Source: Conexibacter woesei Iso977N (GTDB taxonomy: Bacteria > Actinomycetota > Thermoleophilia > Solirubrobacterales > Solirubrobacteraceae). Taken from it: DNA of 64,000 nucleotides. The stretch covers positions 1,364,001 through 1,428,000 of the forward strand of contig NZ_AUKG01000001.1 of assembly GCF_000424625.1 (NCBI RefSeq). The letters run 5' to 3'. Shown here piece after piece: positions 25,350 to 40,098 of this stretch; within the stretch, counting starts at the first letter, position 1; every line of letters starts with the position of its first letter. A program made the position numbers and the translations under genes. The notes below the pieces were generated by a model. It ran no database searches, had not been told where the DNA came from, and saw nothing but the letters and a program-made list of their open reading frames with translations.

Positions 25350-26288
25350 GTGGGTTCTGGGTTCCCGGTCCGGCGGGTGGTGGTGCTCGTCGCGTTGCAG
25401 GTCGTCGCGCTGCTCGCGCTCGTCCTCTGGTGGCAGCACGCGAACGGCGACCATCACCATCAACAACTGAAGCTCGCCGCGGTCACGACCCCGGCGGCGA
25501 CGACGCATCGGTTCGACGTCGAGCGGGCGCTGAGGACGGTCCGGATGCAACTCGCCGCGGGCCCGCGCCCCGCGGCGTCGCCCGCGCTGCGCGAGGTCGC
25601 GGAGAAGCTCAGGCGCCGGCTGCCCGACGCGCACTTCGAGGACGTCCCGGACAACCCCGGCATGCGCAACATCGTCGGCGAGCTGCCCGGCACCGAGCCG
25701 GCGATCGTCCTCGGCGCGCACTACGAGACGATCAACAGGCCGAAGGGGTTCGTCGGGGCCAACGACGCGGCGGCGGCCGTCGGCGCGCTCGTCGAGATCG
25801 CCCACGACCTGCGCCACGCCGACCGCGGCCCGGACGCACCCGCGATCAAGTTCGTGCTCTTCGACGGTGAGGAGGAGCTGGCTCCGACCGACGACTTCTA
25901 CGCCGACGCGCTGCGCGGATCCAAGGCCTACATGAACGCCCACGCCGGCCAGGTGCGCGCGATGTTGTTGTTGGACTACATGGGCAACAAGGGCGTCCGC
26001 CTGCCGCGCGAGGCGACCTCCGACGCCGCGCTCTGGAAGCAGGTCCGCGCGGCCGCCAGGCGCGTCGGGACCGAGTCGATCTTCCCGTCCGCCACCGAGA
26101 CCGGCATCCTCGACGACCACACGCCCTTCCTCCGCGCCGGCGTGCCCGCCGTCGACTTCATCGACTGGTCCTATCCCGTCGCCCACACCTTGGACGACAA
26201 CTACGACCACCTCTCCGCCGCCGCCATCGACGCCGTCGGCGAGACCGTCACCGACCTCCTCCTCCACTGGCCCCAGTCGATCGGCTAG
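25350..26288 (+). CDS. M28-family zinc metallopeptidase, membrane-anchored or secreted
   Basis: A 312-residue peptidase with an N-terminal hydrophobic helix (residues 9-28), then a M28 aminopeptidase-like domain. Zinc ligands in family order are His in LGAHYET, Asp in GANDAAA, Glu in DGEEEL (with the catalytic Glu beside it), Asp in LLLDYMG and His in VAHTLDDNYD. It acts outside the membrane, probably releasing N-terminal residues or cyclising N-terminal Gln. GTG 25350 is supported by CAGAAT 6 nt upstream (leaderless). Convergent with the next gene, with stops overlapping by 4 nt. Confidence 0.88.
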   Translation: MGSGFPVRRVVVLVALQVVALLALVLWWQHANGDHHHQQLKLAAVTTPAATTHRFDVERALRTVRMQLAAGPRPAASPALREVAEKLRRRLPDAHFEDVPDNPGMRNIVGELPGTEPAIVLGAHYETINRPKGFVGANDAAAAVGALVEIAHDLRHADRGPDAPAIKFVLFDGEEELAPTDDFYADALRGSKAYMNAHAGQVRAMLLLDYMGNKGVRLPREATSDAALWKQVRAAARRVGTESIFPSATETGILDDHTPFLRAGVPAVDFIDWSYPVAHTLDDNYDHLSAAAIDAVGETVTDLLLHWPQSIG

Positions 26289-28108
26289 CCGACGACGACG
26301 CGGTCGCGGCCGCCGGCCTTGGCGGAGTACAGCGCCTGGTCGGCGGCGTCGATGAGCGCTCGGGGTGCGGTGCGGCCGTCGGAGGTCGCGACGCCGGCGG
26401 AGAAGGTGACGTTGTCGGGCAGGGTCCCGCGCAACCGCTCGATGAGGCGGGCGGCGCCCGCGCCGTCGCAGCCGGGCAGCATCAGCGCGAACTCCTCGCC
26501 GCCCCACCGCGCGAGCACGTCGGACGAACGCAGCGTCGACTGCCACGCGGCCGCCGCCGCGCGCAGCAACCGGTCGCCGGCGAGATGCCCGTGCTCGTCG
26601 TTGTACCTCTTGAAGAAGTCGAGGTCCAACATCGCGACGCTCAACGCGTCGCCGTGGCGCTCCGCGACGGCGAGCTCCTGCACCAGCAACTCGTCCCACG
26701 CCCGGCGGTTCGGGAGCCCCGTCAGCTCGTCGGTCCGGGTCAGCTCGTCCAACCGCCCCAGCAGGTCGGCCCGCTGCATCGCGATCGCCGCCTCGCCCGC
26801 CAGCACGCCGACGAGCAACATGTCGTTGTCGGTCGCCGACGCGCGCCGCGCCGGCCAGGAGATCGCCAGCGCGCCCCGGGCGCCGCTGGACGCATCGCTC
26901 AAGCCGATCGGGATGAACAACACCGACTCGGCCCCGAGCAGCCTGATGATCCGCCGGTCGCAGTGCGGGCTCGCCGCCGCCTCGGCGACGAACAGCGGCG
27001 TCCCGGTCCGCATCACGTAGTGCGCCCCGTGCTCGCTCTCGCTCCCCGCCACGCGATACGGCGCCGTCGTCTCCGGCAGCGTCGCGGTCGTCGTCAAAGC
27101 ACCATCGGATCCCAGCTCCCACAGCGACACCGCATGCGCGCCGTCGCACAGCGCCAGCGCCGTGCGGCAGATCGTCGGCCGGACCTCCAGCGGGTCGCAG
27201 TGCCCGATCTCGCGCAGCACGTCGGCGATCGACGCCAGCTGCTCCGCATGCCGCCGCTGCGCATCTTCGTGCGCGCGCAAAGCCGTGACATCCCGGACCG
27301 TGTTCAAGAAGCATCGCGTGCCGTCGCCGACGTCGGTCGGCAGCGCCGAGATCTCGGCCGGGAACCGCGTCCCGTCACGCCGGACCAGCTCGATCGCGAA
27401 CGACCCGCCACCCTCGGCGACGACCCTGCGCAGCAGCCCCGCGTTGACCTCGGCGGACTCCGGCGGCCAGAACGCGAACGGCGCGCCCATCCCCAGCAGC
27501 TCGCTCTCCGGGAACCCCGTGATCGCGGTCAGCGCCGGGTTGACCTGCACGATCACGCCGTCGCGCGTCAAGGCGAAGCCCTCGCCCATCGCGCCCAGGA
27601 TCGCGGCGGAGCGACCCGCCTCGTTGCGCACGTGCTCGACCAGCTCGATGACCGCGTAGCCGATCCCACCGCTCACGACGACCATCAGGATCGCCCCGCG
27701 CCACTGCGTCGTCGGGTAACGGTCCAACCCCAACAACAACGGCGTGAAGTACACCAACGCCACGCCGACGAGCACGAACGCGAGGTCCCTGCGCCGGCGC
27801 TCCAACGCGCTCCACAGCACCGGGAGGAAGATCAGCGGCCCGTAGCCCGCGCTCGGCCCGACGCTGTCGCGCATCAGCGCGATCCCGACGAGGCAGACCG
27901 CCAGCCCCGCGGCCCCCAGCCAGCGCCGCCCCGCGGTCCACGGGGCCTTCGAGGACACCGAGATCAGCGTGGTCGCCGAGCCGGTCAGCAGCAGCACCGC
28001 CAGGACGACCTCGCCCCAGCGCGCGCCGTCGGCGATCGGCAGCAGCGCCAGGATCACCGCCAGGCAGGCGGTGAAGAGGACTGCGACTTTTTTGGCCGGA
28101 CGCGTCAC
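26285..28108 (-). CDS. membrane PAS-GAF-GGDEF diguanylate cyclase
   Basis: A 607-residue c-di-GMP synthase. About five membrane helices (8-155), a PAS domain (about 165-285), a GAF-like domain (about 295-445) and a GGDEF domain (450-607). The active site is GGEEF (536-540), and an inhibitory RxxD site (RSSD) stands five residues before it, so product feedback is expected. Leader and -10 signals are not obvious. Divergent from the MetE-like gene. Confidence 0.93.
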   Translation of the reverse strand: MTRPAKKVAVLFTACLAVILALLPIADGARWGEVVLAVLLLTGSATTLISVSSKAPWTAGRRWLGAAGLAVCLVGIALMRDSVGPSAGYGPLIFLPVLWSALERRRRDLAFVLVGVALVYFTPLLLGLDRYPTTQWRGAILMVVVSGGIGYAVIELVEHVRNEAGRSAAILGAMGEGFALTRDGVIVQVNPALTAITGFPESELLGMGAPFAFWPPESAEVNAGLLRRVVAEGGGSFAIELVRRDGTRFPAEISALPTDVGDGTRCFLNTVRDVTALRAHEDAQRRHAEQLASIADVLREIGHCDPLEVRPTICRTALALCDGAHAVSLWELGSDGALTTTATLPETTAPYRVAGSESEHGAHYVMRTGTPLFVAEAAASPHCDRRIIRLLGAESVLFIPIGLSDASSGARGALAISWPARRASATDNDMLLVGVLAGEAAIAMQRADLLGRLDELTRTDELTGLPNRRAWDELLVQELAVAERHGDALSVAMLDLDFFKRYNDEHGHLAGDRLLRAAAAAWQSTLRSSDVLARWGGEEFALMLPGCDGAGAARLIERLRGTLPDNVTFSAGVATSDGRTAPRALIDAADQALYSAKAGGRDRVVVG

Positions 28109-28247: not shown

Positions 28248-29369
28248 ATGTCCCAGCGCACCCGCCCGCCGTTCCGCGCCGACCACGTCGGCAGCCTGCT
28301 CCGTCCGCCCGCGCTCATCGACGCGCGCGCCGACCACGCCGCCGGGAAGATCGACGCCGCCGAGCTTCACGCGCGCGAGGACGACGCGATCCGCGACGTC
28401 GTGAGGATGCAGCGGGACGTCGGCCTGCAGTCCGCGACCGACGGCGAGTTCCGCCGCGCGTCCTGGCACATGGACTTCATCTACCAGCTGGACGGGATCT
28501 CAAAGGCGCCCGGCGACCTGAAGGTCCAGTTCCACAACAGCGAGGGCGACATCGAGTTCACGCCCGCCGCGATGCAGATCGACGGCAGGCTCGGCGTGAC
28601 CGACACGATCTTCGGCGACGCCTTCGACTTCCTCAAGCAGACGACGGCCGCGGACCAGACCCCGAAGCTCACGATCCCGAGCCCCTCGATGGTCCACTAC
28701 CGCGGCGGCCGCGCCTCGATCGACACCACCATCTACCCCGAGCTCGACGCGTTCTGGACCGACCTCACGGCCGCCTACGCCGAGCAGGTCCGCAGGCTCG
28801 GCGACGCCGGCTGCACCTACCTGCAGTTCGACGACACCTCGCTCGCCTACCTCAACGACCCCGAGCAGCGCAAGCACGTCACCGAGATCGGCGGCGACGC
28901 CGAGCACCAGCACGAGGCCTACATCAAGCACATCAACGAGGCGTTGAAGGCCCGTCCCGAAGGCATGGCGATCACCACCCACATGTGCCGCGGCAACTTC
29001 CGCAGCTCCTGGGTCGCCTCCGGCGGCTACGACTTCGTCGCCGAGGCGCTGTTCAACGACCTCGAGGTCGACGGCTTCTTCATGGAGTGGGACGACGCCC
29101 GCTCCGGCGGCTTCGAGCCGCTGCGCTTCGTCCCCAAGGGCAAGATGGTGGTCCTGGGCCTCGTCACCACCAAGAGGGGCGATCTCGAGTCCGCCGACGA
29201 CCTCAAGCGCCGCATCGAAGAGGCCTCCCAGTACGTGGATCTTGACCAGTTGTGCCTGTCGCCGCAGTGCGGGTTCTCCTCCACGGTCGAGGGCAACGCG
29301 CTGACCTACGACCAGGAGGTCGCCAAGCTGCGCCGCGTGGTCGAGGTCGCCCAGGACGTCTGGGGCTAG
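28248..29369 (+). CDS. MetE C-terminal-domain methyltransferase-like protein (YxjG family)
   Basis: A 373-residue protein corresponding to the catalytic C-terminal half of cobalamin-independent methionine synthase. Signatures are FRADHVGSLLRP at the start, TDGEFRRASWHMDF, YLQFDDTSLAY, THMCRGNFRSSW (zinc-ligand region) and LCLSPQCGFSST. Stand-alone proteins of this kind (YxjG/YxjH) use short methyl donors and likely supply methionine or act in organosulfur salvage; they lack the folate-binding N-terminal half. Confidence 0.9.
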   Translation: MSQRTRPPFRADHVGSLLRPPALIDARADHAAGKIDAAELHAREDDAIRDVVRMQRDVGLQSATDGEFRRASWHMDFIYQLDGISKAPGDLKVQFHNSEGDIEFTPAAMQIDGRLGVTDTIFGDAFDFLKQTTAADQTPKLTIPSPSMVHYRGGRASIDTTIYPELDAFWTDLTAAYAEQVRRLGDAGCTYLQFDDTSLAYLNDPEQRKHVTEIGGDAEHQHEAYIKHINEALKARPEGMAITTHMCRGNFRSSWVASGGYDFVAEALFNDLEVDGFFMEWDDARSGGFEPLRFVPKGKMVVLGLVTTKRGDLESADDLKRRIEEASQYVDLDQLCLSPQCGFSSTVEGNALTYDQEVAKLRRVVEVAQDVWG

Positions 29370-29412: not shown

Positions 29413-29488
29413 TGCAGAAAAACGTCCAATTGCCTGGACAAAGCTCAAATCGGACGCGTGTGTCCCGATCACAACGCCAAGAGCAGCC

Positions 29489-30823
29489 ATGCGTCCGACT
29501 TCGACTTCCCCTGCCGTCGCCACCGCCGCACCGACCGGGCCCAGCCCGGTCGCGCGCCGCCCGTGGCTCGATCACTGGCTCGAGACGTGCCGCGACCTCG
29601 CCGAGCTGAAGGCGTCGCACCCGATGGTCGACGCCGTCATCGACGAGATCGACGGCCGCATGATCCGCGTCGGCGACCAGTGGCTCGCCGACTTCGCGTC
29701 GTGCAACTACCTCGGCTTCGACCTCGACCGCGAGATCATCGACGCGGTCCCCGAGTACCTGGAGAAGTGGGGCACGCACCCGTCGTGGTCGCGCCTGCTC
29801 GGCTCGCCGGTGCTCTACGAGGAGATCGAGGAGCAGCTGACCGCGCTGCTCGGCTCCGAGGACTCGCTGGTCCTGCCGACGATCACGCACATCCACCTGA
29901 GCGTGATCCCGCTGCTGGCCGCGTCCGGGACGATCTTCCTCGACGCCCGCGCCCACAAGACGATCTACGACGGCTGCCAGGCCGCCCGCGCCCGCGGCGC
30001 CGCGGTCCGCCGCTTCCGCTTCGAGGACCCGGACCACCTGGACGAGCTGCTCAGCGCCGAGCGCGACCCCACGCGCCTGGTCTGCATGGACGGCGTCAAC
30101 TCGATGACCGGCAACCCGCCGGACCTCCCGGCCTTCGCGGCGGTCGCCCGCAAGCACGGCGCGCTGCTCTACGTCGACGACGCCCACGGCTTCGGCGTCA
30201 TCGGGGAGCGCACCGGCGAGACGACCAACCCCTATGGGTCGAAGGGCAACTCGATCGTCAAGCACTTCGGCGAGTCCTACGACAACCTGATCCTCGTCGG
30301 CGGCTTCTCCAAGTCCTACAGCTCGCTGCTGGCCTTCATCGCCTGCCCGACGGAGGTCAAGGACCTGCTCAAGGTCGCGGCCCCGCCGTACCTCTACTCC
30401 GGGCCCTCTCCGGTGGCGAGCCTCGCGACCGTCCTCGAGGGCCTGAAGGTCAACGAGCAGCGTGGCGACGCGCTGCGCGACGAGCTCGAGCGCCTGACGC
30501 GCAAGACGCTCGACGGCCTCCAGCGCCTGGACGTCCACACGCCCAACCGCACCGGCCTGCCGATCATCGAGATCCCGCTGCGCGATCACGAGCAGATCGA
30601 CTCGGTCGGCCGCTTCCTCTTCGAGCGCGGCGTCTACGTGACGCTCGCCGCCTACCCGCTCGTCCCCAAGGACGAGGTCGGGTTCCGCGTGCAGCTGACC
30701 GCGGTCAACACCGACGAGGAAGTGGACACGCTCCTCACCACGGTCGAGGAGCTGGCCGGCCGCGGCGTCCTGCGACCTGCCTCCGAGCCCCCGTCATCCA
30801 ACAGCCTCCGGAGCGCCGCCTGA
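29489..30823 (+). CDS. alpha-oxoamine synthase (PLP-dependent, BioF/CqsA-like)
   Basis: A 444-residue PLP enzyme that by family condenses an amino acid with an acyl-CoA to give an alpha-amino ketone. Motifs are FASCNYLGF, DARAHKTIYDG, a cofactor Asp/His segment LLYVDDAHGFGVIG, and the Schiff-base Lys in VGGFSKSYSS. It is not in a biotin cluster. Its stop overlaps the ATG of a membrane GGDEF-EAL protein (TGATG), and an MFS transporter follows. Relatives CqsA and LqsA make ketone autoinducers, so signal synthesis is one possibility; a lipid or metabolite role (serine palmitoyltransferase-like) is the alternative. Confidence 0.88.
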   Translation: MRPTSTSPAVATAAPTGPSPVARRPWLDHWLETCRDLAELKASHPMVDAVIDEIDGRMIRVGDQWLADFASCNYLGFDLDREIIDAVPEYLEKWGTHPSWSRLLGSPVLYEEIEEQLTALLGSEDSLVLPTITHIHLSVIPLLAASGTIFLDARAHKTIYDGCQAARARGAAVRRFRFEDPDHLDELLSAERDPTRLVCMDGVNSMTGNPPDLPAFAAVARKHGALLYVDDAHGFGVIGERTGETTNPYGSKGNSIVKHFGESYDNLILVGGFSKSYSSLLAFIACPTEVKDLLKVAAPPYLYSGPSPVASLATVLEGLKVNEQRGDALRDELERLTRKTLDGLQRLDVHTPNRTGLPIIEIPLRDHEQIDSVGRFLFERGVYVTLAAYPLVPKDEVGFRVQLTAVNTDEEVDTLLTTVEELAGRGVLRPASEPPSSNSLRSAA

Positions 30824-33800
30824 TGACCCGCGACGCCGTGCGCCGCAACGCCTGGATCCCGTTCCTGGGCGTTGCCGCTGTCCTGGCCACGTTGTACATG
30901 TTGGTGCCGCCCTTCAAGGGCAACTCCTACGTGATGTTCACGCTGGGGCTCTCGCCCGTCGTCGCGATCCCGCTCGCCGTCCGCCTGCACAGGCCCGAGG
31001 CCAAGGCACCGTGGTACTGGTTCGCCGCCGGCTTCCTGCTGTTCTGGGCGGGCGACCTCTACACCTACACCTACCCGAGGCTCCACCGGGGTACCGCCAC
31101 GCCGTTCCCGTCGCTGGGCGACGCGTCCTACGTGGCGGTCTACCCGGTCCTGATGGTCGGCCTGCTGCTGCTCGTCAGGCGCCGCTCGGCGCGCTCGACC
31201 GACCGCGGCTTCCTCGACGCCGCGATCCTCTCGATCGGCCTCGCGGTCCCGCAGTGGATCGCGCTGATGGCGCCGGACCTGCACATCGCCGAGCTGTCCA
31301 CGCTCGGCAAGATCGTCCAGGTCGCCTACCCGTTCGGCGATGTCATCCTGCTGTCGGCGGCGCTGCTGCTGGCGCTCGACGGCGGCAAGCGCGGCGTCTC
31401 GTTCCACTTCATGTTCACGGCGATCGTCTGCCTGCTGGCGACGGACTTCGTGTACGGGTTGAAGCTGCTCGACGGCACCTACGACAACCAGCTCTGGCTC
31501 GACCTCGGCTGGATGGGCTTCTACGTCCTCTGGGCCGCCGCGGCGCTGCACCCGTCGATGACGATCGTCGACCACGGCCGCCCGGCCAAGGGCCTGCTGA
31601 CGCGCTGGCGCCTGGCGCTGCTGAGCGTCGCGTGCCTGGTCGCGCCGGTCGTCGAAGGGCTCCACCACCTGCACTCGCGCAACTGGGACATGTTGGTCGT
31701 CACCGGCGCGTCGATCGTCCTGTTCGGCTTCGTTGTCGCCCGCATGTCCGGGCTGGTGCGCGTGCAGGAGCGCTCGACCGAGCGCGAGCGCGCGCTGTCG
31801 CAGGTCGGTGCCGCGCTCGTCGGCGCCGCGACGCACGCCGAGGTGACCGCGGTCGCCGTGGCCGCCACGCGCGAGCTGGCCGGCGACGACGTGCGCGTCG
31901 AGCTGCTCGGCGCCGAGCACACCGCGGCCGCCAACGACGGCGCCTACGGCAGCCCGTCGCTGGTCCTGGAGCTGCCGCCCCACGACGGCGTCGCGTCGAT
32001 CCTCGTCGCCGCGGGCCCCGCGGTCGCCGACCGGACCGTGCACAACACGCTGACCGCGCTCGGCTCGCAGATCGTCCTCGCCTTCGAGCGCGCCGCGCTC
32101 AGCCAGGAACTGGGGCGCCGCCAGAGCGAGGCGCGCTTCGCGTCGCTGGTCCAGCACTCGTCGGACCTGATCACGGTCCTGGCCCCGGACGCGACGATCG
32201 CCTACCAGTCGCCGGCGATCGAGCGCGTGCTCGGCTGGACGCCGGAGGAGGTCGTCGGGCGCCGCATCGACGAGCTCGTCGACAAGCACGACAACTCGCG
32301 CCTGCTGCGGCTGATCGCCGACGGCAACGAGGCGCCGGTCGCCGGCTCGCAGACGCTGGAGTGCTCGCTCGCGCACCGCGACGGCGGCACCCGCCAGTTC
32401 GAGGTGTTGTTCACCAACTTGACGCACGACGAGCACGTCGGCGGCATCGTCCTCAACTCGCGCGACGTCAGCGAGCGCAAGGCGTTCGAGCGCCAGCTCG
32501 CCCACCAGGCGTTCCACGACCCGGTCACCGGGCTGCCCAACCGCGCGCTGTTCGTCGAGCGCGTCCGCCACGCGCTGGCGCGCTCGCGCCGCGAGCAGCG
32601 AGGGATCGGCATCGTCTTCGTCGACCTCGACGACTTCAAGATCATCAACGACTCGCTCGGCCACGCCGCCGGCGACGAGGTGCTCAACCAGGTCGCCCAG
32701 CGCCTGGCGCTCTCGATCCGTGCCAGCGACACCGCCGCGCGCTTCGGCGGCGACGAGTTCGCCGTGCTGCTCGAGGACATCGAGGGCGTGCAGGAGGCGG
32801 CCGACGCCGCCGAGCGCATCATGGAGGCGATCGCCGCCCCGCTTACCGCCGCGCACAAGGAGCTGGCGGTCCGCTGCTCGCTGGGCATCACGATCGCGGC
32901 CGAGGACGGCAGCGCCGACGCCGACGAGCTGATCCGCGACGCCGACGCCGCGATGTACATCGCCAAGCGCGACGGCAAGGGCGGCTACCGCCTGTTCGAG
33001 CCCGACATGCACGAGGGCGTCCTGCAGCGGCTCGAGCTGCGCACCGACCTGCAGCGCGCGCTCGTCTCCGACCAGCTGGAGCTCTTCTACCAGCCGGTGA
33101 TCCGGCTGGAGGACGGGACGATCAGCGGCGTCGAGGCGCTGCTGCGCTGGAACCACCCGGAGCGCGGGATGGTCGGCCCCGACCAGTTCATCCCGCTCGC
33201 CGAGGAGACGGGGCTGATCGTCCCGATCGGCCGCTGGGTCCTGCGCGAAGGGTGCCGCGAGGGCAAGCGCCTGCTCGACGGCGTCCCGAGCGACAGGCCC
33301 GCGACGCTGGCGATCAACCTGTCGCTCAAGCAGCTGCAGAACTCCGACATCGTCGCCGACGTGCGCGACGCGCTGGAGGAGTCCGGCCTGGCGCCGGAGC
33401 GCCTGACGCTGGAGATCACCGAGTCGGTCCTGATGGCCGACACCGACCTCGCCGTGCAGCGGCTGGCCGAGTTGAAGGCCTTGGGGATCAAGCTCGCGCT
33501 CGACGACTTCGGGACCGGCTACTCGTCGCTGTCCTACCTGTCGAAGTTCCCGGTCGACGTGCTGAAGATGGACCGCTCGTTCCTGCGCGAGGGCGCGTCG
33601 CAGCAGACGACCGACCTGGCCAACGCGGTCGTCGCGCTGGGCTCCACGCTGTCGCTGGAGGTCGTTGCCGAAGGCATCGAGCTTCCCGAGCAGTGGGAGA
33701 CGCTGCGTGACCTCGGCTGCGAGCTGGGCCAGGGCTTCTACTTCGCGCGGCCGATGAACGCGGAGGCCGCGCGCGCGTTCCTCGCCGAGGGGCGGGCCGG

Positions 33801-33843
33801 CGATGCCACCGGCGTGCTCTCGGCGGGCGACGATGCACCATAG
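30823..33843 (+). CDS. membrane sensor GAF-PAS-GGDEF-EAL protein
   Basis: A 1006-residue c-di-GMP enzyme. Eight or nine membrane helices (about 10-305) precede a GAF-like region (about 315-435), a PAS domain (about 440-555), GGDEF (GGDEF at 642-646 with an RxxD inhibitory site, RASD, five residues earlier) and EAL (EAL at 771-773, LEITES, DDFGTGYSSL, KMDRSF). Both catalytic domains look intact, so it may make and destroy c-di-GMP in response to a signal sensed by the membrane or PAS part. Translationally coupled to the oxoamine synthase upstream and the MFS gene downstream. Confidence 0.93.
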   Translation: MTRDAVRRNAWIPFLGVAAVLATLYMLVPPFKGNSYVMFTLGLSPVVAIPLAVRLHRPEAKAPWYWFAAGFLLFWAGDLYTYTYPRLHRGTATPFPSLGDASYVAVYPVLMVGLLLLVRRRSARSTDRGFLDAAILSIGLAVPQWIALMAPDLHIAELSTLGKIVQVAYPFGDVILLSAALLLALDGGKRGVSFHFMFTAIVCLLATDFVYGLKLLDGTYDNQLWLDLGWMGFYVLWAAAALHPSMTIVDHGRPAKGLLTRWRLALLSVACLVAPVVEGLHHLHSRNWDMLVVTGASIVLFGFVVARMSGLVRVQERSTERERALSQVGAALVGAATHAEVTAVAVAATRELAGDDVRVELLGAEHTAAANDGAYGSPSLVLELPPHDGVASILVAAGPAVADRTVHNTLTALGSQIVLAFERAALSQELGRRQSEARFASLVQHSSDLITVLAPDATIAYQSPAIERVLGWTPEEVVGRRIDELVDKHDNSRLLRLIADGNEAPVAGSQTLECSLAHRDGGTRQFEVLFTNLTHDEHVGGIVLNSRDVSERKAFERQLAHQAFHDPVTGLPNRALFVERVRHALARSRREQRGIGIVFVDLDDFKIINDSLGHAAGDEVLNQVAQRLALSIRASDTAARFGGDEFAVLLEDIEGVQEAADAAERIMEAIAAPLTAAHKELAVRCSLGITIAAEDGSADADELIRDADAAMYIAKRDGKGGYRLFEPDMHEGVLQRLELRTDLQRALVSDQLELFYQPVIRLEDGTISGVEALLRWNHPERGMVGPDQFIPLAEETGLIVPIGRWVLREGCREGKRLLDGVPSDRPATLAINLSLKQLQNSDIVADVRDALEESGLAPERLTLEITESVLMADTDLAVQRLAELKALGIKLALDDFGTGYSSLSYLSKFPVDVLKMDRSFLREGASQQTTDLANAVVALGSTLSLEVVAEGIELPEQWETLRDLGCELGQGFYFARPMNAEAARAFLAEGRAGDATGVLSAGDDAP

Positions 33844-35206
33844 CTACGAGGCATTGGACGGAGCGGGCGCGCCGCCGGGCGGCCCGACCGGCTCCGTCCT
33901 GACGCCGCTGCGCGTCGCGCGGGACTTCCGGCTGCTGTGGTCGGGCGCGACCGCGTCGCTGGTCGGCGACGGCGCGTTCCTGGTGGCCTTGGCCTGGCAG
34001 GTGTACGCGATGAGCGGCGGGCCGGGCGGGATGTCGCTGGTCGGGATCGCGATGACGGTCCCGACGATCGCGTTCCTGCTTGTTGGTGGTGTTGCTTCGG
34101 ACCGCTTCGAGCGCCGCTGGCTGCTGGTCGGCGCCGACCTGCTGCGCGCGCTGGCCGTCGCGCTGCTGGCGGGGCTGGCGATCGGCGGGCAGCTGCAGCT
34201 CTGGCATGTTGTCGTCCTTGCTGCGTTCTACGGGACCGGCTCCGCGTTCCACGCGCCGGCCTTCGACGCGCTCGTGCCCGAGATCCTGCAGGGCGAGCGG
34301 TTGACGCAGGCCAACGCGCTGGACCAGCTGATCCGGCCGCTGGCGCTGCGGCTCGCCGGCCCGGCGCTGGGCGGAGTGATCGTGGGGATCGCCGGCGCGG
34401 CGGGCGTGTTCCTGCTCGACTGCGCGACGTTCCTGGCCGCGGCCGGGACCGTGTTGATGATGGCGCCGGGCACGCGCGAAGCGACGCGCGTAGGCGACTC
34501 GGCGGAGCCGGGCGACACGCCCGCGCCGTCGATGCTCGCCGACCTCAGGACCGGGTGGCGCTTCGTTCGTGGCCACGCCTGGCTGTGGGCGACGTTCGCC
34601 TCGGCCGCGGTCGCGTACCTGCTGTTCATGGGTCCGGTCGAGGTGCTGCTGCCGTGGATCGTCAAGACCGGGATGGGCGGCTCCGCGTTCGACCTCGGCC
34701 TCGTCTTCGCCGCGGGCGGGCTGGCCTCGATGGCGACGGCGCTGGGCGTCGGCAAGCTCGGGCTGCCGCGCCGCGGCATCACCTACATGTTGGTTGCCTG
34801 GACGCTCGCGACGCTGGCCGTCGCCGGCTACGGCGCGGCGACCGCGATCTGGCAGCTGATGCTCGCCTCCGCCGCCTTCAACGCGCTGGAGACCGCGGGC
34901 ACGATCGTCTGGGCGACGACCAAGCAGCGCCATGTGCCCTCACAACTGCTGGGCCGCGTGTCCTCGCTGGACTGGCTGATCTCCGTCGGCCTGCTGCCGC
35001 TGAGCTTCGCGCTCACCGGCCCGGTCAGCGGCGCGATCGGCGCCCGCGCGACGCTCGTCGGCGCCGGGATCCTGGGCGCGGTCGTCACGCTCGCCGCGCT
35101 CTACGTCCCGGGCATGCGCGTCCTGGACGACCGCGCGGAGGCGGCGCACCGGCGCCGCCTCGCGGTCGAGCGGCGGCTCGCGGCCGCCGCGCCCGCTACG
35201 TCCTAG
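33833..35206 (+). CDS. MFS transporter
   Basis: A 457-residue MFS protein with about 10-12 helices, of the MFS_3 (enterobactin exporter-like) type: RDFRLLWSGATASLVGDG at the first helix, GVASDRFERRWLLVGADLLRA between helices 2 and 3. The ATG at 33833 overlaps the end of the GGDEF-EAL gene by 11 nt, making this the third gene of the operon. It could export the synthase product (inference). Ends back to back with the convergent fprA stop. Confidence 0.9.
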   Translation: MHHSYEALDGAGAPPGGPTGSVLTPLRVARDFRLLWSGATASLVGDGAFLVALAWQVYAMSGGPGGMSLVGIAMTVPTIAFLLVGGVASDRFERRWLLVGADLLRALAVALLAGLAIGGQLQLWHVVVLAAFYGTGSAFHAPAFDALVPEILQGERLTQANALDQLIRPLALRLAGPALGGVIVGIAGAAGVFLLDCATFLAAAGTVLMMAPGTREATRVGDSAEPGDTPAPSMLADLRTGWRFVRGHAWLWATFASAAVAYLLFMGPVEVLLPWIVKTGMGGSAFDLGLVFAAGGLASMATALGVGKLGLPRRGITYMLVAWTLATLAVAGYGAATAIWQLMLASAAFNALETAGTIVWATTKQRHVPSQLLGRVSSLDWLISVGLLPLSFALTGPVSGAIGARATLVGAGILGAVVTLAALYVPGMRVLDDRAEAAHRRRLAVERRLAAAAPATS

Positions 35207-38010: not shown

Positions 38011-38364
38011 ATGGGCGTCAACCGCATCGTGCCGAACCTCCACAACGCCGATCCCGCCGCGGCGGCCGGGTTCTACAGGGAGGTCGTCGGCCTCGAGGCC
38101 GGGATGGACATGGGCTGGATCGTGACGCTCGTGGCGCCCGGCGAGCGCCGGATCCAGCTGTCGCTGATCAGCGCGGACGAGACCGCGCCGGTCGTCGCCG
38201 ACGTGTCGATCGAGGTCGACGACGTCGACGCCGCGTGGGCCGCCGCGCAGGCGCGCGGGGACGAGATCGTCCACCCGCTGACCGACGAGCCGTGGGGCGT
38301 CCGGCGCTTCTTCGTCCGCGACCCGGGCGGCAAGGTCATCAACATCGTCATGCACGCGCAGTAG
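38011..38364 (+). CDS. VOC (glyoxalase/bleomycin-resistance-like) protein
   Basis: A 117-residue protein with two beta-alpha-beta-beta-beta units. FYREVVGLEAG and DVSIEVDDVDAAWAAAQARG are typical of the fold, as is the ending WGVRRFFVRDPGGKVINIVMH with its conserved metal-ligand region. Role (dioxygenase, epimerase, resistance or binding) is not deducible. The 3' end overlaps the convergent MFS gene by 17 nt. Confidence 0.88.
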   Translation: MGVNRIVPNLHNADPAAAAGFYREVVGLEAGMDMGWIVTLVAPGERRIQLSLISADETAPVVADVSIEVDDVDAAWAAAQARGDEIVHPLTDEPWGVRRFFVRDPGGKVINIVMHAQ

Positions 38365-39574
38365 GCGCGGGCTCGGCCGGGAGGTCCCGGACCGCGCGGA
38401 CCAGCAGCGGCGCGAAGAGGCTGGTGACGCCGAGCGCGAACGCGATCCACAGCGCGGTCGCGGTGCTCGTCGCGGCGGCGACCGGGCCCCAGATCGCCAG
38501 CCCGATCGGCTCGAAGACCAGCGAGCCGAGCCAGTCGTAGGCCGACACGCGGGAGAGCAGGCGCGCTTCGACGTGGCGCTGCATCGTCGACTCCCAGACG
38601 GTCATGCCGAGGACCATCCCGACCTCGCCCACGAACGCGGCCGCCGCGATGATCGCGGTCGGGGCGACCACCGCGAGCAGCGCGAACTGCACGAAGAACG
38701 CGCCGACCGCGCAGGTCATGAACACGAGCGGGCGCCGCGGGGCGAGGCGCAGCGCGAACAGGCCGCCGAGGACCCCGCCCGCGCCGGCGGCGGCGACGAT
38801 CGCCGACCACGCGCCGACGCCGCCGAGCTCGGTCTTGGCGACGACCGGGCCGAGGACCTTCCAGGCGCCGTTGCACAGGTTGCCGACGGCGGCGCTGGCG
38901 ACGATCGCGACCAGCCAGGTCATGGAGCGGAACGCGGTCCAGCCGGTGCGCAGCTCGTCGAGGAACGACTCGGTCGCGCCCGCGGCGCGCCCGGCGCCCC
39001 GGACCGCCATCGCGGCGACCAGCGCGGCGGACACCGCGTAGCTGGCGGCGTCGACGGCGATCGCCCAGCCGGCGCCCGCGGTCGCGACGAGCAGGCCCGC
39101 GAGCAGCGGCCCGGCGATCCGTCCGCCCGAGCTCGCGAGGCTGCGCAGCGCGTTGGCCTCCTGCAGGCCTTCGGCGGAGACGACCTCGGGCAGGAAGCCG
39201 GTCGCGGTCGGGTTGAAGACGCCGGTCGCCGCGCCGGTCACCGCGGAGAGCGCGGCGAGCAGCGCGATGCTGCCGTTGCCGCTGATCAGCACGGCGGCGA
39301 CCGCGCCCTGCGAGCCGATCCGGACGACGTCGGTCGCGATCAGGACCGCGCGCCGCGGCAGGCGGTCGCCGATGACGCCGCCGCCGAGCAGGAAGGCGAT
39401 CACCGCCAGCGAGCGCGCGGCCAGCACGATCCCGACGTCGGACGCGCTGCCGCCGTGGTCGAGGATGCCGAACGCGAGCGCGACGGTGACCATCTGGTCG
39501 CCGAGCAGCGACGCCAGCTGGGCGCCGAAGAGGAGGCGGTACTCGCGCTCGTGCAGGACGGCGGGCAGCCGCAT
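38348..39574 (-). CDS. MFS transporter
   Basis: A 408-residue MFS_3-type exporter with about twelve helices: EYRLLFGAQLASLLGDQMVTVALAF at helix 1 and GVIGDRLPRRAVLIATDVVR between helices 2 and 3. TAGGCT lies 6 nt before the ATG, so the mRNA is probably leaderless. The MarR regulator just upstream on the same strand may control it. Confidence 0.9.
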   Translation of the reverse strand: MRLPAVLHEREYRLLFGAQLASLLGDQMVTVALAFGILDHGGSASDVGIVLAARSLAVIAFLLGGGVIGDRLPRRAVLIATDVVRIGSQGAVAAVLISGNGSIALLAALSAVTGAATGVFNPTATGFLPEVVSAEGLQEANALRSLASSGGRIAGPLLAGLLVATAGAGWAIAVDAASYAVSAALVAAMAVRGAGRAAGATESFLDELRTGWTAFRSMTWLVAIVASAAVGNLCNGAWKVLGPVVAKTELGGVGAWSAIVAAAGAGGVLGGLFALRLAPRRPLVFMTCAVGAFFVQFALLAVVAPTAIIAAAAFVGEVGMVLGMTVWESTMQRHVEARLLSRVSAYDWLGSLVFEPIGLAIWGPVAAATSTATALWIAFALGVTSLFAPLLVRAVRDLPAEPAPTARA

Positions 39575-39603: not shown

Positions 39604-40098
39604 CTAGTCGTCGTCCCAGTCGGCCGCGGTGCGCTGGTCGACGGCGAGCAGGAGCGTCCTCAGCGAGGCGCGCTGGCGGTCGGAGAGCCCGCCGAGCAGG
39701 CGGTCCTCGACGGCCTCGACCGCGGCGTCGGCGGCCGCGCGCTTGCGCAGGCCGGCGCGGGTGATCGTGACGATGTGGCGGCGGCGGTCGGCGGTGTCGC
39801 GGGTGCGCGCGACCAGGCCGGCGGCCTCCAACTTGTTCAACATCGTGACCAGGTTGGAGGGGTCGGAGTGCAGCAGCTCGCCGAGCTGGGCCTGGGTCAG
39901 CCCCTCGCCGTCGGCGTCGCCGTCGGCGGCGCGCAGGCGCAGCAGGATCTCCGCCTCGCGGCCGTTGAGGTCCAGCGGCGCGAGCGCCTCGTGGATCCAG
40001 CGGCGGGCGACGAAGCCGACCTTGTTCAACAGGAACCCCGGGCTGGAGAAGCGCTCCTCGGGGGTCAGCTCGGTGGTCGGCGTCAGCGTCGGCGGCAC
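39604..40098 (-). CDS. MarR-family regulator
   Basis: A 164-residue winged-helix regulator. The HTH and wing are clear: LTQAQLGELLHSDPSNLVTMLNKLEAAGLVARTRDTADRRRH in outline, in the usual place (about 70-115) between dimerisation helices. A perfect dyad, ATCATCGG/CCGATGAT, stands in the divergent space touching the -35 of the sulfonate operon, so it likely controls that operon and itself. GTG 40098 has TACGCT 6 nt upstream. Confidence 0.9.
   Translation of the reverse strand: MPPTLTPTTELTPEERFSSPGFLLNKVGFVARRWIHEALAPLDLNGREAEILLRLRAADGDADGEGLTQAQLGELLHSDPSNLVTMLNKLEAAGLVARTRDTADRRRHIVTITRAGLRKRAAADAAVEAVEDRLLGGLSDRQRASLRTLLLAVDQRTAADWDDD

Follow-up and report, generated by a model that had tools for sequence, protein, structure and literature searches.

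The window analysed here, a stretch of 64,000 nucleotides from Conexibacter woesei Iso977N (contig NZ_AUKG01000001.1, positions 1,364,001 to 1,428,000 of the forward strand), carries three overlapping same-strand genes that form one operon. They encode an enzyme of the alpha-oxoamine synthase (AOS) family, here called SYN, a membrane protein with PAS, GGDEF and EAL domains, and an exporter of the major facilitator superfamily (MFS). Three overlapping genes had been called in an original prediction made from the letters alone, and the overlaps at 30823 and 33833-33843 bear this out. In the features below, PLP is pyridoxal 5'-phosphate and 10TM a domain of ten transmembrane helices.

29489-30823, + strand: SYN, PLP-dependent alpha-oxoamine synthase, 444 aa (Pfam PF00155, 5e-28)
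30311-30313, + strand: SYN codon for the predicted PLP-binding lysine K275, in GGFSKSYSS (alignment with BioF, KBL and CqsA)
30823-33843, + strand: membrane receptor-like protein, 10TM-PAS-GGDEF-EAL, 1006 aa (Pfam, AlphaFold2, motifs)
30823-31812, + strand: predicted 10TM sensor domain, residues 1-330 (AlphaFold2 model, alignment of 44 members, tree)
32134-32466, + strand: PAS domain, residues 438-548 (Pfam PF00989, 2e-9)
32509-32979, + strand: GGDEF domain, residues 563-719, with GGDEF motif and I-site RASD intact (PF00990, 9e-48)
33043-33753, + strand: EAL domain, residues 741-977, with catalytic motifs (Pfam PF00563, 6e-73)
33833-35206 (alternative start 33803), + strand: MFS_3 family exporter (Pfam PF05977, 1e-31)

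The SYN stop codon TGA (30821-30823) and the ATG of the receptor gene (30823) have one base in common, and the receptor-gene stop (33841-33843) lies inside the MFS frame, giving an overlap of 11 bases with the ATG at 33833, the start preferred by homologous loci, or of 41 with that at 33803. An open frame at 29458-33843, in the sensor frame and running through SYN, is a by-product of high G+C and does not count as evidence for a gene.

The synthase and the membrane protein

Domain search, alignment and structure match all place SYN in the AOS family of PLP fold-type I proteins. The features of membership are present (the Schiff-base lysine, the stacking histidine, the Asp and His of DDAHG and the C-terminal arginine), the catalytic residues K275, H156, D230, H233 and R400 are invariant in a 28-row alignment, and K275 lines up with the Schiff-base lysine of BioF, KBL and CqsA. 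In its AlphaFold2 model (pLDDT 88) SYN matches ThAOS, BioF, SPT and KBL at VIA Z 44-47 and CqsA at about 40. Although fold and catalytic residues are thus those of ThAOS, SPT, KBL and BioF, SYN differs from them in having its own clade-specific motifs (GTHPSWSR, MDGVNSMTG), an insertion around PYGxRGNSIVRH and a separate place in the tree. It also misses every NCBIfam AOS cut-off: 193 bits against 426 for the BioF model TIGR00858, 180 against 500 for SPT, 150 against 460 for KBL and 100 against 339 for ALAS. The kinship with CqsA and LqsA originally proposed stands at the level of the family and is not supported as a close relationship, the score against the CqsA-type model NF005526 being 82 bits for a cut-off of 428. 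The host encodes, separately, a true BioF, whose 453.9 bits exceed the curated cut-off, as well as a second AOS paralogue.

Relatives of SYN at 58-89% identity occur in Solirubrobacterales, Acidimicrobiia, Euzebyaceae, Micromonosporaceae, Kineosporia, Streptomyces and Yersinia nurmii, the last being the sole one found outside Actinomycetota. A preliminary 87-row tree put SYN on a very long stem. In a careful tree, which includes the polypeptides that join an AMP ligase, an acyl carrier protein (ACP) and SYN, the phylogeny that had been asked for yields a separate clade with support 100/100, apart from enzymes of the CqsA/LqsA type, while constraints joining SYN with CqsA (p-AU 0.147), BioF (0.072) or KBL (0.074) are not rejected. 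All reference rows came from records; one further CqsA sequence was a search key only. A plasmid search for close relatives returned general AOS enzymes only, the best at about 31% identity.

The first 330 residues of the membrane protein are predicted to form ten membrane helices (AlphaFold2, from 44 homologues in alignment A1; pLDDT 93, pTM 0.89), and not the eight or nine first supposed. Of the GAF-PAS-GGDEF-EAL architecture proposed for it, PAS, GGDEF and EAL are confirmed by matches well above the Pfam cut-offs, whereas a GAF domain was looked for and none is detectable; the homologue in locus L102 has a weak GAF_3 match, below cut-off. This protein and nearly all of its relatives keep intact GGDEF, I-site RxxD and EAL motifs. 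No Pfam family covers the 10TM domain, although 7 of 44 members match MASE5 weakly (best 0.0013); a PDB profile search with its alignment gave no match up to E 1, and Foldseek gave none under 0.001. Likewise, hhalign against the Vibrio CqsS sensor, taken from beside cqsA, returned a probability of 0.1%. A likeness of the middle helices (about 27-248) to G-protein-coupled receptors and rhodopsin (VIA Z 9-10.4) fell below the caution level for helical bundles and was not used. In genomes of the Actinoplanes group (L046-L062; G346-G356) frames with the 10TM domain run from about 490 to more than 1800 aa, pointing to a large, unnamed actinobacterial family of sensors that Pfam lacks.

Conservation, fusion and exchange of outputs

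The survey covered 87 loci, of which L109 repeats L019, leaving 86 distinct SYN loci; the AT-rich or low-bias loci L012, L015 and L051 were read by tblastn or lists of open reading frames, not by the simple gene caller. A 10TM protein lies near SYN in 68 of the 86. The two are fused in 26 loci, stand as SYN followed by the membrane gene in 20 and in the reverse order in 15, and are divergent in six and convergent in one. The pair is known from about ten actinobacterial families, with several orders of the genes and with fusions, and such an arrangement is far beyond chance. The single-frame loci comprise 25 of Streptomyces type (24 named Streptomyces loci and L110), with the order 10TM, PAS, GGDEF, EAL and aminotransferase-fold, together with L078; a further Streptomyces locus, L076, has a broken frame. 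An independent fusion, of SYN to a different GGDEF-EAL type, is that of L078 from a Solirubrobacteraceae metagenome-assembled genome; it is seen on a single contig, whose end falls within the synthase. The fused gene (L078:2027-4912) is the second synthase of the metagenome-assembled genome that also holds L009, and is fused to a GGDEF-EAL protein of 8TM type.

Among 346 evenly drawn actinomycetote genomes SYN was present in 25, each with a 10TM domain on the contig that carries SYN, while 48 of the 321 genomes lacking SYN have a 10TM match anywhere (Fisher 3e-19, uncorrected for phylogeny). In the tree of the 10TM domain, two supported clades hold most of the SYN-linked domains, and their rows come solely from SYN-bearing genomes; the unlinked rows inside them (L130, L133, L134 and L135) belong to genomes that carry SYN elsewhere, and every domain fetched from a genome that lacks a close synthase lies outside both. 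The 10TM domain of L128 groups with those of L101 and L102, and its genome, G130, has a distant synthase remnant by a short-chain dehydrogenase. The original prediction had set down beforehand that an unconserved pair, or a synthase grouping firmly with BioF or sphingolipid enzymes and complementing them, would speak against it; because SYN is distinct by the curated cut-offs and the pair is conserved and often fused, neither outcome came about.

SYN and the 10TM domain are the constant partners, and what varies is the output. GGDEF-EAL is the output in most loci and GGDEF alone in L056, but several kinds of histidine kinase are also found on the 10TM domain beside SYN: PAS with a kinase in L103, L106 and L107, a HisKA_3 kinase in L104 and L112, a kinase and receiver in L105 (followed in the same gene run by a LuxR-type response regulator), and a kinase with two receivers (REC-REC) and Hpt in L101. 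That a GGDEF-EAL protein can stand in place of the kinase, as originally proposed, is thus seen directly. L101 (kinase) and L102 (GGDEF-EAL), from one genus, have 10TM domains 71% identical; L103, L106 and L107 each hold both kinds of receptor, kinase and GGDEF-EAL, in one gene run, with 10TM domains 67, 56 and 65% identical, and in L103 and L107 the two domains are close relatives in the tree. Since the 10TM domain stays beside SYN while the output changes, a synthase-receptor pair is favoured.

Several neighbouring genes bear on the chemistry. In L101 and L102 SYN stands at the C-terminal end of a polypeptide of the order AMP ligase-ACP-synthase, and therefore an acyl-ACP is the expected acyl donor there; the acyl group should be a fatty acid, judging from homology to fatty-acyl-AMP ligases in a Pfam-pattern reading. 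In L054 the gene for an AMP-binding ligase overlaps the SYN stop, with homologues after SYN in L055 and L060. The ligase fusions and the L054 gene point to acyl thioester donors, and the fusions to a fatty aminoketone product. An MFS_3 exporter, 50-82% identical, adjoins SYN in about 22 loci, three of them without a nearby 10TM gene. After the fused gene, most Streptomyces loci have a protein with a weak NNMT/PNMT/TEMT N-methyltransferase match just below the Pfam cut-off (L023:9302-10096 and counterparts). These neighbours fit an exported, further modified alpha-aminoketone, and none of them is proof of it. Short-chain dehydrogenases adjoin SYN in two genomes (L108:6652-7419; L129:593-1465) and could reduce a ketone. 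In Yersinia nurmii (L051:6242-10279) the gene next after SYN encodes an arginase-family ureohydrolase, and a folE2 gene lies upstream; SYN has apparently been transferred out of Actinobacteria here and has a different partner.

A proposed signalling module and the alternatives

In light of this linkage, we put at about even the prospect that SYN, the 10TM protein and the MFS exporter make up a self-contained chemical signalling module. We infer its substrates, product, export, ligand binding and direction of signalling much as the original prediction inferred a ketone product, its binding by the membrane domain and its export. SYN would join an amino acid and a fatty acyl thioester (of coenzyme A or ACP) to give an alpha-aminoketone, possibly modified further, which the MFS protein would export and the 10TM domain of the neighbouring protein would bind in the membrane; the signal would then pass through PAS to GGDEF-EAL and alter the turnover of cyclic di-GMP (c-di-GMP), or in other lineages drive a histidine kinase or phosphorelay instead. 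In Streptomyces, where a single polypeptide holds both synthase and receptor, the receptor end may govern synthesis too, as RpfR governs RpfF. Somewhat short of even, and so held tentatively, is the broader proposal of a new class of signal in Actinobacteria, acting between cells or in self-sensing: an undescribed AOS subfamily would make a fatty alpha-aminoketone, and an undescribed family of 10TM receptors with exchangeable outputs (c-di-GMP or phosphorelay) would perceive it, with synthase, receptor and second-messenger enzyme forming one polypeptide in Streptomyces.

Several points weigh against the signalling module. Its ligand and its product are both putative, the 10TM domain yielded no direct sequence evidence for a ligand pocket, and a sensor merely controlling a biosynthetic enzyme would produce the same gene linkage. 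The domain belongs to a wider family, with 10-24 matches per Actinoplanes genome where a single SYN is found, so it can sense other things; it occurs in 48 genomes that lack SYN; in the Actinoplanes clade the SYN and 10TM genes are unlinked; and Yersinia nurmii has SYN and no 10TM protein in its genome. The main rival draws on the same ground. The 10TM domain might sense some other cue, such as the state of the membrane or a host or competitor compound, and switch on SYN and the MFS protein through c-di-GMP or a phosphorelay, the exported product then being a specialised metabolite or lipid and the fused SYN of Streptomyces an output domain. The order of the fusion (sensor, GGDEF-EAL, SYN) is indeed the usual one from N-terminal sensor to C-terminal output, and the many 10TM domains of SYN-less genomes, the LuxR-type regulator in the L105 gene run and the Yersinia synthase without a 10TM partner all agree with it. 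Unless the cue were itself tied to the pathway, however, it leaves unexplained why one 10TM subfamily tracks SYN across changes of output and why the SYN-linked clades are limited to SYN-bearing genomes. Weakened by the output exchange and the clade distribution, it is a real possibility that we nonetheless doubt.

Two further explanations carry less weight. Were c-di-GMP an allosteric regulator of SYN, with GGDEF-EAL acting as a local device at the membrane independently of any sensor ligand, the Streptomyces fusion and the joining of two GGDEF-EAL types to SYN (that of L023 and that of L078) would be readily understood; kinases replace GGDEF-EAL beside SYN in L101, L104, L105 and L112, however, and with c-di-GMP thus not constant this is improbable. 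It is more improbable still that SYN is a housekeeping enzyme of biotin, threonine or sphingolipid metabolism adjoining a regulator by chance. The fold and catalytic residues common to SYN, BioF, KBL and SPT, and the groupings with BioF, KBL or CqsA that its deep placement among AOS enzymes still allows (AU p 0.07-0.15), are compatible with such a role, but the host has its own BioF and second paralogue while SYN falls below every cut-off, only 25 of 346 actinomycetote genomes have SYN, and in the loci examined SYN has no gene for biotin, threonine or ceramide as a neighbour.

Known systems, significance and genomic surroundings

Set against known systems, the signalling module resembles a cross between two kinds of pair. 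CqsA/CqsS and LqsA/LqsS are AOS synthases paired with kinase receptors in alpha-hydroxyketone quorum sensing (PMC3376566). Similarly, SYN is a PLP-dependent AOS enzyme adjoining a multi-helix membrane receptor, some of these receptors being kinases, and the synthase and receptor are linked genetically in a conserved way, as in autoinducer pairs; unlike those systems, the usual output is GGDEF-EAL, and the sensor has ten predicted helices where CqsS has six, with no detectable sequence relation. RpfF/RpfR of Burkholderia and Cronobacter, for the fatty-acid signals DSF and BDSF, pairs a synthase gene with a PAS-GGDEF-EAL receptor that binds and inhibits the synthase and ties the DSF signal directly to c-di-GMP (PMC6361424). 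The present loci likewise set a synthase beside a PAS-GGDEF-EAL receptor, the one in the window has GGDEF and EAL catalytic motifs as RpfR does, and the physical interaction of RpfF with RpfR parallels the Streptomyces fusion. RpfR, however, which has an N-terminal FI domain, takes its ligand on a cytosolic PAS domain, whereas the constant element here is the 10TM domain, and the MFS partner and the covalent fusion belong to the present loci. Nor is RpfF the partner in the window, since the synthase there is an AOS enzyme; RpfF, which has a crotonase fold, does not belong to the PLP enzymes. Within the DSF family there is, besides, a pair with a kinase receptor, RpfC/RpfG.

RpfF/RpfR already exemplifies the pairing of a synthase with a c-di-GMP receptor, and given that system (PMC6361424) a signal linked directly to c-di-GMP, as originally proposed, would not be unprecedented. 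The SYN clade, the 10TM domain and their fusion, by comparison, appear undescribed in the open-licence literature searched, where no paper was found that links AOS enzymes with GGDEF proteins or joins 'oxoamine synthase' with 'fatty acyl-AMP ligase'; papers naming BioF alongside GGDEF were unrelated to this pairing. The SYN-10TM pair of many actinobacteria looks like an undescribed chemical signalling system, its signal molecule being putative. In Streptomyces, CdgF and CdgC are 10TM-PAS-PAC-GGDEF-EAL proteins; in the model species S. venezuelae CdgF sits in the membrane, retains both active sites and has no known phenotype (PMC6205966). Ten helices, PAS, GGDEF and EAL are the architecture found here too, although the published domain table (PMC6205966) gives neither a synthase domain. 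CdgF may be the fused protein of related Streptomyces (e.g., L027, L032 and L034).

C-di-GMP governs development and antibiotic production in Streptomyces, and the cues perceived by its PAS- or GAF-containing GGDEF/EAL proteins are unknown (PMC6205966); a synthase fused to a GGDEF-EAL protein names a candidate class of signal. The 10TM domain would add a new receptor family, one of mixed outputs, and signals made by AOS enzymes would reach beyond Vibrio and Legionella. More broadly, the fusion bears on the question of whether a signal synthase can be joined covalently to its receptor.

Elsewhere in the window, a second c-di-GMP protein (PAS, GAF_2 and GGDEF, 607 aa) lies two genes upstream of the operon at 26285-28108 on the minus strand, and in the Conexibacter locus L079 homologues of it and of a Meth_synt_2 gene (28248-29369) lie upstream of the synthase. 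A further MFS_3 exporter at 38348-39574, also on the minus strand, is 33% identical to that of the operon and adjoins a MarR-like gene (39604-40098). The host genome as a whole has an unusually large c-di-GMP set, with 59 places that match the GGDEF or EAL part of the operon's membrane protein.
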